A DNA stretch of 64,000 bases from Gemmatimonadota bacterium. Lineage in GTDB: Bacteria > Gemmatimonadota > Gemmatimonadetes > Gemmatimonadales > Gemmatimonadaceae. The stretch is taken from assembly GCA_028287305.1 (NCBI GenBank), contig JAQBPX010000038.1:558001-622000 (forward strand), read 5' to 3'. Below are positions 17,908-60,213 of the stretch, in pieces. Each line of letters opens with the position of its first letter. The first letter of the stretch is position 1. The notes under the pieces were generated by a model. It made no database searches. It was not told where the DNA came from and saw only the letters and a list, made by a program, of their open reading frames with translations. Made by a program: the position numbers and the translations under genes.

Positions 17908-18120
17908 TGATGGCCCGTAGGCCCGTGGGCCCGTGGGCTCGAGCAAGGACAGGGTAGCGGCGCCTTCGGCGCCTGCTTCGTCATCAGTTCGAGGTTAACG
18001 GCACTCGGGCCGGCGCGCGCCAGCGGCTGTTCCTTGTAACGAATGACGAAACGGCGCCGCCAGGCGCCGCTCACCGCTTCAGTGCTGTAGCCCACGGGCC
18101 TACGGGCCCACGGGCCATCA
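17908..18120. repeat. Nested inverted-repeat element with tandem-repeat arms
   Basis: Arms 17908-17939 and 18089-18120 pair at 30 of 32 positions. Each arm is itself a roughly 9-bp tandem repeat of GGCCCGTGG type. Inside, a second arm pair (GCGGCGCCTTCGGCGCC and ATGACGAAACGGCGCC regions) continues the stem toward a GC-rich centre. The element fills the gap between two convergent genes, so it may also stop transcription from both sides. Confidence 0.85.
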
Positions 18121-37828: not shown

Positions 37829-38365
37829 GTCATCCTGAGCGCCGCGAAGGATCTGCCGTTGTGGTTGGCCGCTCTACCGGTCCGGCAGGTCGGTGGTCTG
37901 TGGTCTGTGGCCCGGACATGATGTGGAAGGCGGGCGCCTGCGGGCGCCCGCCTTTGTCATTGGTATGGGGTTCACATGTTCGAGGGGGTGGCGATGCACA
38001 GCGATACCGGGGTCCGGTTTGCCTGTTGCCTGAAGCCGGAAGCTCGAGCACTGACAACGAAGCGCTGCGCGCTTCGTCATTGGTTTTCAGTTGACATGTT
38101 CACGGATAACGAAGCGGCGGCTGAAGGCCGCCGCGTACCGCGTCAGTGTTCGAGCCTCAGGCTTCAGTCTTCAGGCAACCGTAACTCGGTATCGGCCGTT
38201 ACTGCCGGACTCCAAACTCCTAACCAGGAACGAATGACAAAGGCGGGCGCCCGCAGGCGCCCGCCTTCCTTGTCATGTCCGGGCCACAGACCACAGACCA
38301 CCGACCCGCAATACCGGTAGAGCGGCCAACTACAACGGCAGATCCTTCGCTGCGCTCAGGATGAC
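37829..38365. repeat. 537-bp giant inverted-repeat element (arms about 134 bp)
   Basis: Arms 37829-37963 and 38233-38365 are inverted copies at roughly 90 percent by eye. Each arm contains, from the outside in, the short interspersed repeat, CCGCTCTACCGGT, GGTCGGTGGTCTGTGG, CCCGGACATGA and a 12-bp hairpin of AAGGCGGGCGCC type. The inner 270 bp hold two further opposed modules, GCTCGAGCACTGAC (38042-38055) and its inverse (38142-38155), each beside a hairpin. No ORF is present. It fills most of the 707-bp gap between the propeller and transporter genes. Confidence 0.9.
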
Positions 38366-38408
38366 TGCAGGGCTGCGCTCAGGATGACTGCAGGGCTGCG
38401 CTCAGATG
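38346..38408. repeat. 23-bp tandem repeat
   Basis: A unit GCTGCGCTCAGGATGACTGC plus AGG is repeated with a 23-bp period, two full copies and a partial third. It runs from the right arm of the giant inverted repeat up to the stop of the transporter gene. Confidence 0.85.
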
Positions 38409-41552: not shown

Positions 41553-41651
41553 CCGCGGACTACCGCGGACTACCGCGGACGAGTGCAACTACAAGGACCT
41601 TTTTTGCAATCGTCCGCGGTCGTCCGCGGTCGTCCGCGGCAAAGCTGTTTT
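41541..41651. repeat. Inverted repeat with 10-bp tandem arms between convergent GH13 genes
   Basis: Arms 41541-41588 and 41604-41651 form one near-perfect stem with a 15-nt loop. Each arm contains three tandem 10-bp units (CGCGGACTAC in one, GTCCGCGGTC in the other). The arms share the GCCGCGGAC phrase with those flanking the GxxExxY gene at 49364. Placed between convergent stops, it may act as a two-way terminator. Confidence 0.9.
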
Positions 41652-49363: not shown

Positions 49364-49807
49364 ATGGAAAGCAACGACAAGTGCATTCAGCCGCGGACGA
49401 GCGCGGACGAGCGAGGAAAACTGCCACGACTCGAACGAGGCGACACCACCGGAAGAATCATCAACGCCTTTTATCACGTGTACGGCACCCTCGGATACGG
49501 CTACCTGGAATCGGTCTATCGCAACGCATTCGCGATGACGCTTCGGAAGCGCGGCTTCGACGTAATTACCGAAGGCGAGCTCACGGTGAACTTTGAAGGA
49601 GAGATCGTTGGCTCCTTCAGGGCCGACTTGCTCGTGGACCTGAGCATCGTGCTCGAGCTGAAAACCGCGAAGGCCATCGACCCGGCACACGAGGCCCAAC
49701 TCCTCAACTACCTCAAGACCAGTGGCCTCGAGCTAGGCTTCGTCTTCAACTTCGGTCCGAAGCCTACGTTCAGCCGACGCGCCTTCACTCATCCTGGCCG
49801 GCGGTAG
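49364..49807 (+). CDS. GxxExxY family protein, copy 2, carried in an inverted repeat
   Basis: This 147-aa protein has GYGYLESVYRNAF (GxxExxY), FRADLLVDLSIVLELKTAK (a PD-(D/E)XK-like DxnExK pattern) and the ending LGFVFNFGPKP. It is a paralogue of the protein at 20171. Its first 25 residues are partly encoded by the left arm of an inverted repeat (49390-49424), whose mate is at 49818-49856. It runs opposite to the flanking Sus genes and separates susD from the amylase genes. The only ATG available is at 49364, outside the arm. Confidence 0.9.
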   Translation: MESNDKCIQPRTSADERGKLPRLERGDTTGRIINAFYHVYGTLGYGYLESVYRNAFAMTLRKRGFDVITEGELTVNFEGEIVGSFRADLLVDLSIVLELKTAKAIDPAHEAQLLNYLKTSGLELGFVFNFGPKPTFSRRAFTHPGRR

Positions 49808-49856
49808 TGACTATCCTGCAGCTCTCCGCGCTAGTCCGCGCTAGTCCGCGGCAAAA
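49390..49856. mobile_element. Inverted-repeat-flanked GxxExxY cassette
   Basis: Arms GCCGCGGACGAGCGCGGACG plus AGCG (from 49390) and, inverted, the same phrase ending at 49856 match at about 30 of 35 positions. Both arms are about 10-11-bp tandem repeats. They enclose almost the whole GxxExxY gene. The arm phrase is shared with the ORF-less inverted repeat at 41541-41651. Confidence 0.7.
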
Positions 49857-55740: not shown

Positions 55741-56490
55741 GTGACTTCCATGGATTCCCGGGACCTCCGGATCGACCAGGCCCGCACCAGCATCGAGTTC
55801 CTGGGCAGCGATGCCCACGAGTACCTGCCGCACCTCGCGGTGGACTGCGTGGTGTTCGGCGTCCACGAGGGCGACCTCCGGATCCTGCTGACCCACTGGA
55901 CCAAGCGAGACCGGTGGAGCCTGCCGGGCGGGTTCGTCCGGAATGACGAGTCCGTGGACGAGACCGCCAGCCGGGTGCTGCGGATGCGAACGGGGCTCGA
56001 CGACGTCTTCCTCGAGCAGTTCCACACCTTCGGGTCGCTGGACCGTGGCCACCCCGGCGCCGACCGGTTCGTGTCGGTGGGCTACTACGCGCTGGTGGAC
56101 TTCTCGATGGCGACGCCCACGCCCGACGGCATCCTCACCGACGAGTGCCGCTGGTGGAACCTCTGCGGGCGCCCCGACCTTCTCTTCGACCACGACGAGA
56201 TGGTCGCCCGCGCACTCGGCACGCTGCGGTTGCAGCTGGGGACGCGGCCGATTGGCCTGACCCTGTTTCCGGATGACTTCACGTTGCCGGAGCTGCAGCG
56301 TTTGTATGAGACCGTGCTGGGCCGGTCACTGGACAGGCGGAACTTCCAGAAGAAGATGCGGGAGCTTGGGATCCTTACGCGGGTTGGGGAGAAGTCCACC
56401 GAGAACTCGCGCCGGGCTCCGTATCTGTATCGGTTCGATGCGGAGAAGTATGCGGAGGCGCTCGAGAGGGGAGACTCTCTCGCGTACTGA
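55741..56490 (+). CDS. Nudix-like transcriptional regulator (NrtR/AraR type)
   Basis: This 249-aa protein has an N-terminal Nudix fold and a C-terminal winged helix (FTLPELQRLYETVLGRSLDRRNFQKKM), the layout of NrtR- and AraR-type regulators. The Nudix box spans 64-86, with Gly64, Glu70, Arg78 and Gly85 kept. The three catalytic Glu positions are Val79, Met82 and Arg83, so hydrolase activity should be lost. It is divergent from the esterase and sits at the head of the Sus-type locus, whose regulator it probably is. The sugar-like ligand is unknown. Start is GTG 55741 or ATG 55750. Confidence 0.85.
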   Translation: MTSMDSRDLRIDQARTSIEFLGSDAHEYLPHLAVDCVVFGVHEGDLRILLTHWTKRDRWSLPGGFVRNDESVDETASRVLRMRTGLDDVFLEQFHTFGSLDRGHPGADRFVSVGYYALVDFSMATPTPDGILTDECRWWNLCGRPDLLFDHDEMVARALGTLRLQLGTRPIGLTLFPDDFTLPELQRLYETVLGRSLDRRNFQKKMRELGILTRVGEKSTENSRRAPYLYRFDAEKYAEALERGDSLAY

Positions 56491-56501
56491 GGCTTGGGGC
56501 T

Positions 56502-57099
56502 GCGGTAACTGCGTGGCTTCGGGCTTCGGGCGCGGGCTACGGTCCTCGGGCTTCGGTAACTAGCGGCCTCGGGGATTCGGTACGCTGCGCGTTCATTGGG
56601 TGACGGCGGCAGCGGCGGTGCGCGGTACCGTGGCGCATGCGCGATCCCAATAAGCTCGAAGTCTACGTTCGCTCGGTTGACCTTGCGGCCGAAGTCCTGA
56701 TCCTTTGCGAAGCTCTGCCGGTGCGCTTCCGCAAGCAGCTCATCGACCAGGTCGTGCGCGCCGCGCTCTCGATTCCCGGCAACATCGGCGAGGGGAACGG
56801 CAAGGACACTCATCGCGAGTACCTGCAGTACCTGCGCACTGCCACCGGCAGCGCGAACGAGCTGGCGGCCTATCTCGACGTGCTGCGGAAGGCGTTTCCG
56901 GCCGTCGTGAAGATCCCGGCCCTGCGCGAGGAGCTCACGACCTGCAAGAAGATGCTGGCCGGACTGGCGAAAACCGTGCGGAGCCGAATCGAGACGGAGC
57001 CGGATTAGCCGCCGTCATGCCGCCCTTCCCCGAAGCCGTAGCTACCGAGGCCCGAAGACTGTAGCCCGCGCCAGAAGCCCGAAGCCACGCAGTTACCGC
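56502..57099. mobile_element. Inverted-repeat cassette carrying an S23-type gene
   Basis: Left arm 56502-56561 and right arm 57040-57099 match as an inverted repeat over about 60 bp with few mismatches. The first 26 bases (GCGGTAACTGCGTGGCTTCG plus GGCTTC) are identical. A shorter inner pair (TGACGGCGGC / GCCGCCGTCA) closes on the gene. A four-helix-bundle ORF sits in the loop, the layout of 23S rRNA intervening sequences, but here outside any rRNA gene. Confidence 0.8.
56637..57008 (+). CDS. S23-type four-helix-bundle protein
   Basis: This 123-aa protein belongs to the family of proteins encoded in 23S rRNA intervening sequences. Landmarks are VYVRSVDLAAEVLILCEALP, FRKQLIDQVVRAALSIPGNIGEGNGK and YLQYLRTATGSANELAAYLDV. 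It is small, all helical, and forms pentamers in known relatives; its function is not established. It lies in the loop of a long inverted repeat. The ATG at 56637 lacks a clear ribosome site. Confidence 0.92.
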   Translation: MRDPNKLEVYVRSVDLAAEVLILCEALPVRFRKQLIDQVVRAALSIPGNIGEGNGKDTHREYLQYLRTATGSANELAAYLDVLRKAFPAVVKIPALREELTTCKKMLAGLAKTVRSRIETEPD

Positions 57100-57102
57100 C
57101 GC

Positions 57103-58281
57103 CTAAGGTTTTCCCCCCGAAAACAACCAGAGGTATGCCCTGGGAAACTCCCGCCTCCAAAACCACTCCGAATGCACTCCATCCGGAGGCATCGACGCCT
57201 CAATGGAGGAGCCGCGCAAAAACCCCGAAGCCACGAGCGTATCCACAAGCGCCGCCTGCTGGACTCCCATGGAGCCATCGGGGGTCTCCTTGCCGCCCAC
57301 CACGAAGTAGAACTTCGGCGCCGGTGTGAGTGGTTTCACCTTCTTCACGAATGAATAGAGCTCCGGCGCCGTCCAGTGCGCCGACGAGAACACGCCGGCG
57401 CGACCGAACACCGTCGGATACTTGAGCGCCGCATACAGCGAGATGAGCCCGCCCATGCTGGAGCCCATCACCCCCGTGTTCTCGCGCGACGGCATCGTGC
57501 GATAGTGCGCATCGATGTAGGGCTTGAGCGTCTTCGCCAGGAAGTCCACGTACCTGTCGCCCTCGCCTCCCATCAGCGCGGGATTCGCGTTCTTCCACGG
57601 GTTGTACTCGGACATGCGGTGGGTCTCGCCATTGTCCACCGCCACCACGATCACGCCGCGATCGCCGAGTGCGTGCAGCGAGTCGAGCGTCTCGTCGATT
57701 CCCCACTCGCCCGCGAAGCTGGTGGCCGCGTCGAACACGTTCTGTCCGTCATGCATGTAGAGCACGGGATAGCGCAGCTTGCTCGTCGCGTAACCGGGCG
57801 GCAGGTACAGCCACACGCGACGCTCGCGTCCCAATTGCGGAATCGCGAAGGTGTCGCTGAGCACGTGGACGTTGGCGCTCGCCGTGTGCTTTCTCGGCGT
57901 GCCGACCCCCGACTTCGTGTCCCAGCGCGCCACCACCACGCTCAGCGTCTCGGCGCCCGTTCGCGGCACCGTCGCGGTGCGGTTCGCCATCTGGTCGCCA
58001 TTCGCGAGCAGCTCGACGTGGTCCCACGACCCCACCGTCAGCTTGAACTCCACGGTGCCGGTGACTCCACTCGGCATCGTGATCGCCCAGGTGGAATCGG
58101 CGAGCCGCGTCATCTTCCAGCTGGCCGAGCCGGGATTCCACCCGTTGAAGCCGCCCGCGACGTAGATCGCGGCGTTGGCCGGGATCGGCGGCGACTTCGT
58201 CACGTGAATGGTCAGCTGCGCGGCGGCGGGCGTCGCCAGGGCGAGCGGGAGCAGCAGCGCGAATGCGACGGAGATCTTCAT
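57103..58281 (-). CDS. Secreted esterase with N-terminal E-set (CBM48-like) domain
   Basis: This 392-aa protein has a signal peptide ending PAAAQ and an E-set/CBM48-like domain with IYVAGGFNGWNPGSASW. A Fes-like alpha/beta hydrolase follows, with YPVLYMHDGQNVFD, the elbow GSSMGG and His in PDGVHSEWFW. It is a secreted relative of the esterase at 54709. The last codons abut the right arm of the S23 cassette. The E-set domain suggests a glucan-bound substrate. Confidence 0.88.
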   Translation of the reverse strand: MKISVAFALLLPLALATPAAAQLTIHVTKSPPIPANAAIYVAGGFNGWNPGSASWKMTRLADSTWAITMPSGVTGTVEFKLTVGSWDHVELLANGDQMANRTATVPRTGAETLSVVVARWDTKSGVGTPRKHTASANVHVLSDTFAIPQLGRERRVWLYLPPGYATSKLRYPVLYMHDGQNVFDAATSFAGEWGIDETLDSLHALGDRGVIVVAVDNGETHRMSEYNPWKNANPALMGGEGDRYVDFLAKTLKPYIDAHYRTMPSRENTGVMGSSMGGLISLYAALKYPTVFGRAGVFSSAHWTAPELYSFVKKVKPLTPAPKFYFVVGGKETPDGSMGVQQAALVDTLVASGFLRGSSIEASMPPDGVHSEWFWRREFPRAYLWLFSGGKP

Positions 58282-58333
58282 GCGCGAACAATGCACGGAT
58301 CTGCGGTTCGCCGCCACTGAAACGACCAAACAG

Positions 58334-58448
58334 CAACAGCCTTGAGCCACGGGTTGCACTGAGCCGCTGCGCGGCTGACACTGGCATGTAATGGCCGTGT
58401 TGCGCCTGCGCAGCAGGCGCCCGTGAAACCCGTGGCTCAAGTCAGTTG
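58334..58448. repeat. Inverted-repeat element between divergent genes
   Basis: Arms 58334-58359 and 58423-58448 match at 23 of 26 positions around CTTGAGCCACGGGTT. Between them are two hairpins (GAGCCGCTGCGCGGCT and GCGCCTGCGCAGCAGGCGC), the same arrangement as other elements in the window. Confidence 0.85.
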
Positions 58449-58506
58449 CAGTTGAGGTAGTTTCCCCAAGCTTGACCAATCGACCGGCGATCCGCACCAT
58501 CACCGC

Positions 58507-60213
58507 ATGCCACGCACCCGAATCCTGGCCGGCGCGCTGCTCCTCGCCGCCTGCGCCCGCCCCGCCACCGCTCCCTCCCCCGCCACTGCGACCTACGACG
58601 TAGTCATCGAGAACGGTCGACTGGTCGACGGCACCGGCAACCCGTGGAGCTACGGTGACGTTGGCATTCGCGGCGACCGCATCGCGGTCATTGCGCCGCG
58701 CGGCGGACTCACTGGGGCTCGCGCGACGCGACGCATCGACGCGCGCGGCCACATCGTGTCGCCCGGTTTCATCGACATCCAGGGGCACTCGTGGGACAAC
58801 CTGCTCTGGCGCGACGGACGCGCCGTGAGCAAGGTGACGCAGGGCGTCACGAGCGAGATTCTCGGCGAGTCCACCACGCCCGCCCCGGCGAACGCGCTCG
58901 TGGATTCACTGGTGCTCAGGGACGACGCGAACCCCCTGCGCGCCGCGCTGCAACCGTCCTTTCACGGCGAGCACGGCTTCGACGCATGGCTCTCGGCCAT
59001 CGAGCGCCACGGTAACGCGATCAACGCGGGCTCGTATCTCGGCGCGTCCACGGTGCGCGCGTACGCCATGGGCCAGGCACCCGGCGCGCCGAGCGACGCG
59101 CAGCTCGACACCATGCGCATGGTGGTGCGGAACGCGATGCACGACGGCGCGTTCGGCATCTCCACCGCGCTGATCTATCCCCCCGGCGGCTACGCGGGCA
59201 CGCGCGAGCTGGTCGAGATGGCGAAGGCGATGTCGCCGTATCATGGCGGCTACATCACGCACATGCGCTCGGAAGACGACTCGATCTTCCAGGCGATGGA
59301 CGAAGCCTTCCGCATCGGAGTGGAAGGCCACGTGCGCGTGGACATCTATCACCTGAAGACGTCGAACAAGGAGAACTGGGGCAAGGCGCCGGCGGTGATC
59401 GCAAAGATTGATTCGGCGCGTGCGAGCGGCTTCGACCTGGGCGCCACCATGTACCCGTACCCGTACAGCGGCAACAACCTCGGCGAGTGCATCCCCGACT
59501 GGGCATCCGAGAACGGCAAGCTGCTCGCGAACCTGCGCGACGCCGCCACGCGTGCGCGCATCGTGCGCGAAATGGCGGACCCGAAGGGTCACGTCCTCTG
59601 CCAGCGGCAGGGCCCCACGCTCTACATGATCACCGACTTCCGGAAGCCGGAGCACGCGAAGTACGAGGGCAAGCTGCTCAGCGAGATTGCCGACGACATG
59701 AAGCTGCCGTGGCCCGACGCGATCGTCGAGTTGATCACGAGCGAGGGGCGCGACCTCTCGAAGATCAACTTCTCGATGAGCGAGGACAACGTGCGGCTGC
59801 AGATCGCGCAGCCATGGGTCGTGATCGGCACCGACGCCGGCAGCTTCGATCCCGACTCGGCGAAGAACATGGTGCATCCGCGCGCCTATGGCTCATACCC
59901 GCGGATCCTCGGACGCTACGTGCGCGAGCAGCACCTCTTCACGCTCGAGGAGGCCGTGCGCAAGATGACGGGAGGCGTCGCGTCACGACTCGGGATTCGC
60001 GATCGCGGCCTGCTGCGCGAGGGGATGTTCGCCGACGTCGTGGTGTTCGACGACGCGACGATCATCGACCTCGCGACCCCCGCGAAGCCCCATCAGATAT
60101 CGAAGGGAGTCGAGTGGGTGCTCGTGAATGGGGAGGTGGTGCTGGCCGACGGGAAGTTCACGTCAGCGCGGCCGGGGCGGGCGCTGCGCGGGGCCGGCTT
60201 CGGGATGCCGTAG
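58507..60213 (+). CDS. N-acyl-D-amino-acid deacylase-like amidohydrolase lipoprotein
   Basis: This 568-aa protein is a D-aminoacylase-type amidohydrolase, with VIENGRLVDGTG, SPGFIDIQGHSWDNLL, GGYITHMRSE, the HLK lysine region DIYHLKTSNKENWGK and the late metal Asp region IGTDAG. The first metal site reads IQGHS rather than the common HxH, so only one of the two His is kept. The signal ends LAAC (Cys16), making it a lipoprotein, unusual for cytoplasmic D-aminoacylases. It probably acts on periplasmic D-amino acid or dipeptide derivatives. Confidence 0.88.
   Translation: MPRTRILAGALLLAACARPATAPSPATATYDVVIENGRLVDGTGNPWSYGDVGIRGDRIAVIAPRGGLTGARATRRIDARGHIVSPGFIDIQGHSWDNLLWRDGRAVSKVTQGVTSEILGESTTPAPANALVDSLVLRDDANPLRAALQPSFHGEHGFDAWLSAIERHGNAINAGSYLGASTVRAYAMGQAPGAPSDAQLDTMRMVVRNAMHDGAFGISTALIYPPGGYAGTRELVEMAKAMSPYHGGYITHMRSEDDSIFQAMDEAFRIGVEGHVRVDIYHLKTSNKENWGKAPAVIAKIDSARASGFDLGATMYPYPYSGNNLGECIPDWASENGKLLANLRDAATRARIVREMADPKGHVLCQRQGPTLYMITDFRKPEHAKYEGKLLSEIADDMKLPWPDAIVELITSEGRDLSKINFSMSEDNVRLQIAQPWVVIGTDAGSFDPDSAKNMVHPRAYGSYPRILGRYVREQHLFTLEEAVRKMTGGVASRLGIRDRGLLREGMFADVVVFDDATIIDLATPAKPHQISKGVEWVLVNGEVVLADGKFTSARPGRALRGAGFGMP

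Follow-up and report, generated by a model that had tools for sequence, protein, structure and literature searches.

An S23 gene in the loop of a heptad-armed hairpin

In the 64,000-nt stretch of Gemmatimonadota DNA analysed here (the window), a single unit occupies the whole gap between two convergent genes that lie outside the element, an NrtR-like Nudix regulator (55741–56490, + strand) and a putative esterase (57103–58788, − strand; a mechanical ORF whose true start is probably further in). The left (5′) arm of the unit (56498–56575, + strand) is made of degenerate GGCTTCN heptads and starts 7 nt past the regulator's stop codon. The right (3′) arm (57027–57103, − strand) is an inverted copy with the same heptads and ends at the stop codon of the esterase gene. 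The two arms are 91% complementary over a gap-free 65 nt (56498–56562 and 57039–57103) and 90% complementary in a gapped alignment of 78 and 77 nt, which scores 113 compared with 18–21 for shifted and shuffled controls. The heptads are clearest at 56515–56556 (+ strand), where TRF reports a period of 7, the consensus GGCTTCG and 6.1 copies. The only family-matching ORF in the hairpin loop is a 123-aa S23 (23S_rRNA_IVP) four-helix-bundle gene at 56637–57008 on the + strand, with scores well above the cut-offs for both PF05635 (E = 7.6e-20; 71.6 bits, cut-off 33.8) and TIGR02436 (E = 1.4e-21; 76.8 bits, cut-off 24). As RNA, the + strand of the unit folds far better than its shuffled versions (z −10.5, 20 shuffles).

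The original prediction had placed an S23-type gene inside an inverted repeat outside rRNA, and both points hold. The unit is not in rRNA because no Rfam family, rRNA included, matches within 54–60 kb of the window, and its flanks are the regulator and the esterase. Two features had been overlooked: the tandem-heptad make-up of the arms and the presence of further arm copies across the genome. That the inverted repeat surrounds an ordinary gene by chance was rejected as having next to no likelihood, on the basis of the shifted, shuffled and mismatched-flank controls and of the repetition of the arms.

Arm copies in the source genome and S23 loci elsewhere

The search for further arm copies that had been suggested for this genome showed that the arms are not unique. 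The 4.37-Mb source genome contains eight S23 genes and about 25 copies of the window arm, with and without an ORF. Among the 11 inverted pairs of this arm that were counted, 10 are units of 160–220 nt without an S23 gene and the eleventh is the window unit. The ORF-less pairs tend toward gene ends, like the S23 unit. Two further S23 arm families in the same genome likewise have ORF-less inverted pairs.

One of these pairs, unstranded and without an ORF, lies in the window at 17912–18116. Its 8-nt tandem repeats (GGCCCGTG) stand at 17912–17938 and, inverted, at 18090–18116, and are akin to the arms around the S23 gene of L004 in the same genome; the hairpin is thus broadly of the type described above. 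An inverted pair of 10-nt tandem repeats at 41553–41580 and 41610–41639 (CCGCGGACTA and TCGTCCGCGG) may be such a hairpin built on a 10-nt unit, and further short 10-nt tandem repeats lie at 49392–49417 and 49825–49850. The window also carries a 23-bp tandem repeat, GCTGCGCTCAGGATGACTGCAGG, at 38349–38405; a similar tract, GCTGCGCTCAGGATGACTGCAG, adjoins another arm copy on contig C1 (L010, 300–410).

Across 25 arms and 62 aligned columns, 25 columns are invariant and 17 vary widely, and position 7 of the heptad is A, G or T but almost never C. At the variable columns, agreement is 0.42 within a hairpin versus 0.46 between hairpins (permutation p 0.86). RNA pairing was rejected as the cause of arm conservation because the variable columns mismatch within one hairpin. 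Something besides pairing would therefore conserve the arm skeleton, and recognition of the repeated motif is the simplest reading. A first impression that the arms have a polarity relative to the gene was dropped; an inverted repeat reads alike on both strands.

To establish how general this layout is, S23 loci were gathered from relatives and from many phyla, Methanophagales archaea included (L062, L111). Inverted arms surround 145 of 187 S23 genes, compared with 1 of 187 in a control that combined left and right flanks from different S23 loci; about one fifth of the surveyed genes have no detectable arms. A first multi-phylum set gave 48 of 72 loci versus 0 of 268 shifted windows, in a later set, drawn from six genomes, arms flank 17 of 27 loci (six of these overlap the earlier set), and among eight S23 loci read from plasmids of cyanobacteria, six have this layout. 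Self-similarity within the near flanks is in sharp excess at lags of 7 and 14 nt and in smaller excess at 8, some elements having an 8-nt or a weak period. The heptads vary from element to element (AGTTCTC, GGACGGT, AGTAGTC and GGGACCG, among others), and an AG or GG core is usually kept. A search for S23 carried by phages gave no match.

On a Pseudanabaena plasmid (L168, 2489–2848), cas6 and cas4 of a type I-D CRISPR-cas cluster are separated by an S23 gene whose long heptad arms are of GGCTTTT type. As read from the sequence, an S23 unit on a Nostoc plasmid (L161, 2483–2851) lies between two ribonucleotide reductase genes and one in X. arboricola (L095, 2001–2294) apparently between accB and accC, so that these two units split essential or co-expressed gene pairs.

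Between genomes, S23 similarity and heptad similarity rise jointly, and do so more than after shuffling of the heptads inside each genome (p 0.003), a co-variation that linked inheritance predicts too. A profile of relatives matches PDB entries 2gsc and 2rld, which contain five chains each; that a pentamer would suit arms of a few heptads is suggestive only.

Gene-end position and turnover

The arms typically lie flush against genes, with a median of 3 nt between the arm start and the adjacent gene's stop codon. By mechanical ORF calls, which left 70 loci unclassifiable, S23 loci favour convergent over divergent gaps (26 versus 9), and between tandem genes S23 is co-oriented with the operon in a ratio of 29:11 (p 0.006), a bias owed mostly to the non-Gemmatimonadota set (23:3).

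Two S23 units of a relative (genome G024) are precisely missing in G039, of the same genus, where the flanks are 7 and 11 bp apart. We traced the site of the second unit through its family. It is empty (GACTAG-AGCT or close) in G136, G106, G131 and G039, carries S23 with GGGACG-type arms in G024, G119 and G127 and S23 with GGGAAG-type arms in G114, and holds an ORF-less hairpin of GGGACTG/GGGAATG heptads in G109 or of GACGTCA/GACATCA heptads in G138. One orthologous site therefore shows all states, empty, hairpin only and hairpin with S23, and the heptads are swapped as a block. The S23 unit is present there in four genera, which suggests either an ancient unit that was lost several times, and did not jump often, or a favoured site that has been used repeatedly. 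At another orthologous site, in two genomes of one genus (L141 and L149), the flanks are 80% identical and the S23 unit is no longer alignable; the S23 proteins are 62% identical and the arms wholly changed. S23 is under purifying selection, with dN well below dS.

The elements examined gave no clear case of a target-site duplication. One site has a CTAG-like stop-codon sequence on both sides, a pattern that the need of both genes for a stop codon could mimic. An approximately 80-bp palindromic, ORF-less and REP-like repeat without heptads (G024 L158, 7254–7346) is absent at the syntenic place in G039 and present elsewhere in that genome.

These results largely support the proposal that the hairpin and its S23 gene form a unit not confined to rRNA, since the unit recurs outside rRNA and precise empty sites exist for elements of relatives. 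For mobility the support is partial: filled and empty sites may reflect precise loss of S23-bearing copies as well as gain. The expected empty allele was found for such comparable elements but was not obtained for the window element, because the regulator and the esterase are not conserved together in relatives: of the 79 genomes in the family only 8 have a similar regulator, and the esterase lies near it at 0 of the 7 other loci.

Related systems and the possible role of S23

S23 genes have been known until now mainly from insertions in rRNA genes. The likeness to intervening sequences (IVSs) that had been drawn for the window unit proves a good analogy: in the rRNA IVSs of Coxiella and Leptospira an S23 ORF lies between inverted arms, in the loop of a long stem and in sense with the host transcript, as here, and in Coxiella GACAGAT heptads stand in tandem just before the ORF (PMC4990558). 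The window unit differs in lying between protein genes; no S23 locus among the 60 surveyed is in rRNA. It differs also in having ORF-less hairpins with its heptads scattered through the genome. In this last respect it resembles the REPIN/RAYT system, with dispersed intergenic inverted doublets, a rare gene bordered by that repeat, and a gene and repeat that differ between families (PMC3116915). It is not a RAYT system because S23 is no transposase, whereas RAYT proteins are Y1 (HUH) transposases. In addition, the arms here are tandem heptads rather than the single palindromic REP of a REPIN, genomes with several S23 genes are common, and no transposition intermediate was seen. MITEs are also short, repeated, gene-less inverted-repeat units, but the elements described here have no transposase relative, no firm target-site duplication, and arms of tandem heptads.

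Orphan heptamers reported from several bacteria have in common with these arms that degenerate 7-mers stand in tandem at the ends of genes, some of them in inverted pairs. The GGGAATC repeats of Xanthomonas were reported as quadruplex-forming, with 70–75 cases of close inverted pairs (PMC4692102). In an X. arboricola genome, GGGAATC heptads border the only S23 gene, and the GGGAATC dimer occurs 188 times and the reversed pattern 0 times. Judged by the published descriptions of the repeats, the Nostoc heptamer GGGGA(C/T)T (PMC4692102), the Beggiatoaceae heptamer TAACTGA (PMC4679880) and the TDNGATT/NNTGAGT heptamers in P6b of the Nostoc trnL intron (PMC4476775) are candidate kin of S23 arms. 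The author who described TAACTGA suggested, as the possible mobile element, a protein that binds the repeat (PMC4679880). S23 is mentioned in neither PMC4692102 nor PMC4679880, and in the open-access PMC literature we found no prior link between S23 and heptads beyond the Coxiella repeats.

The explanation that we favour, with slightly better than even confidence, is a widespread two-part element analogous to REPIN/RAYT. One part would be the hairpin, with arms of tandem, often degenerate heptads flush against gene ends; the other, present in some copies only, would be the S23 gene in the loop, acting in trans to support the hairpin family. S23 would recognise its own heptad array, which is likely, on either an extruded DNA hairpin or a transcribed RNA hairpin, and such recognition would support the spread or persistence of the hairpin family, ORF-less copies included. 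That spread depends on S23 is plausible. Cutting and joining would fall to host enzymes because S23 has no known catalytic domain. Given the place of the unit between one gene's stop and another's start codon, its RNA hairpin could be cut out like rRNA IVSs, which RNase III excises, and insertions would then stay nearly silent. Speaking for this reading are the repetition of the arms, their conserved skeleton, the joint rise of S23 and heptad similarity, the empty sites and changing states, the selection on S23, and the heptads of X. arboricola and Coxiella. Against it stand the sharing of one S23 site by four genera, the lack of a clear target-site duplication, the S23 genes with no detectable arms and the elements with 8-nt or weak periods.

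The main rival is a purely regulatory role, which we regard as unlikely though well worth weighing. Here S23 would be a domesticated RNA-binding regulator that binds inter-cistron heptad tracts in mRNAs and affects termination, processing or stability, with its own arms serving autoregulation and the dispersed hairpins as targets. TRAP, which binds spaced triplets, provides a comparison. Such a role fits hairpins flush with stop codons, the 29:11 orientation of S23 with operons, purifying selection on S23 and old conserved elements at orthologous sites, as well as the report that most Xanthomonas GGGAATC repeats are transcribed (PMC4692102). However, precise presence or absence between close relatives, block-wise heptad change at one site and the presence of many families in one genome look selfish, and the neighbouring genes have no noted functional theme.

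That the arms are passive hairpins, made of tandem repeats by slippage, with their inversion kept by template switching and S23 hitch-hiking in the loops, is improbable. Tandem 7-mers that alter in both length and sequence are as slippage predicts, long palindromes readily undergo precise deletion, and terminator function is conceivable for three convergent hairpins that lie at gene ends. This account does not explain why one small gene family occupies the loops in many phyla, and template-switch correction predicts a match between arms at the variable columns, where none is seen. Less probable by far is a retroelement akin to diversity-generating retroelements (DGRs), with arm variability produced by reverse-transcriptase mutagenesis and S23 as a relative of Avd. 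The two proteins do belong to related four-helix-bundle families (PMC10053308), and the columns of the arms fall into invariant and highly variable ones. Yet RVT_1 reverse transcriptase has no match in the source genome, estimated to be 100% complete, and no template/variable repeat pair was seen. DGR mutagenesis converts adenine to any base, unlike the near absence of C at position 7, and DGR-type mutagenesis was rejected for the source genome because of the missing reverse transcriptase and the wrong base pattern.

Under the two-part explanation, S23 is the probable cognate protein of a hairpin population. We put forward more tentatively, at somewhat less than even confidence, that such elements are a class of mobile hairpins apart from transposase, retro and intron elements, in which a cognate S23 spreads or maintains tandem-heptad hairpins, and to which the rRNA IVSs and the Xanthomonas, Nostoc and Beggiatoaceae heptamers would belong. 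S23 genes are widespread and their function is unknown, and heptamer repeats stand without a partner in several bacteria; the link between the two is a candidate explanation for each. It also makes an old question directly testable, namely whether rRNA IVSs come from a mobile element whose ORF aids mobility, because it brings together a small protein with structurally solved relatives and a short repeat.
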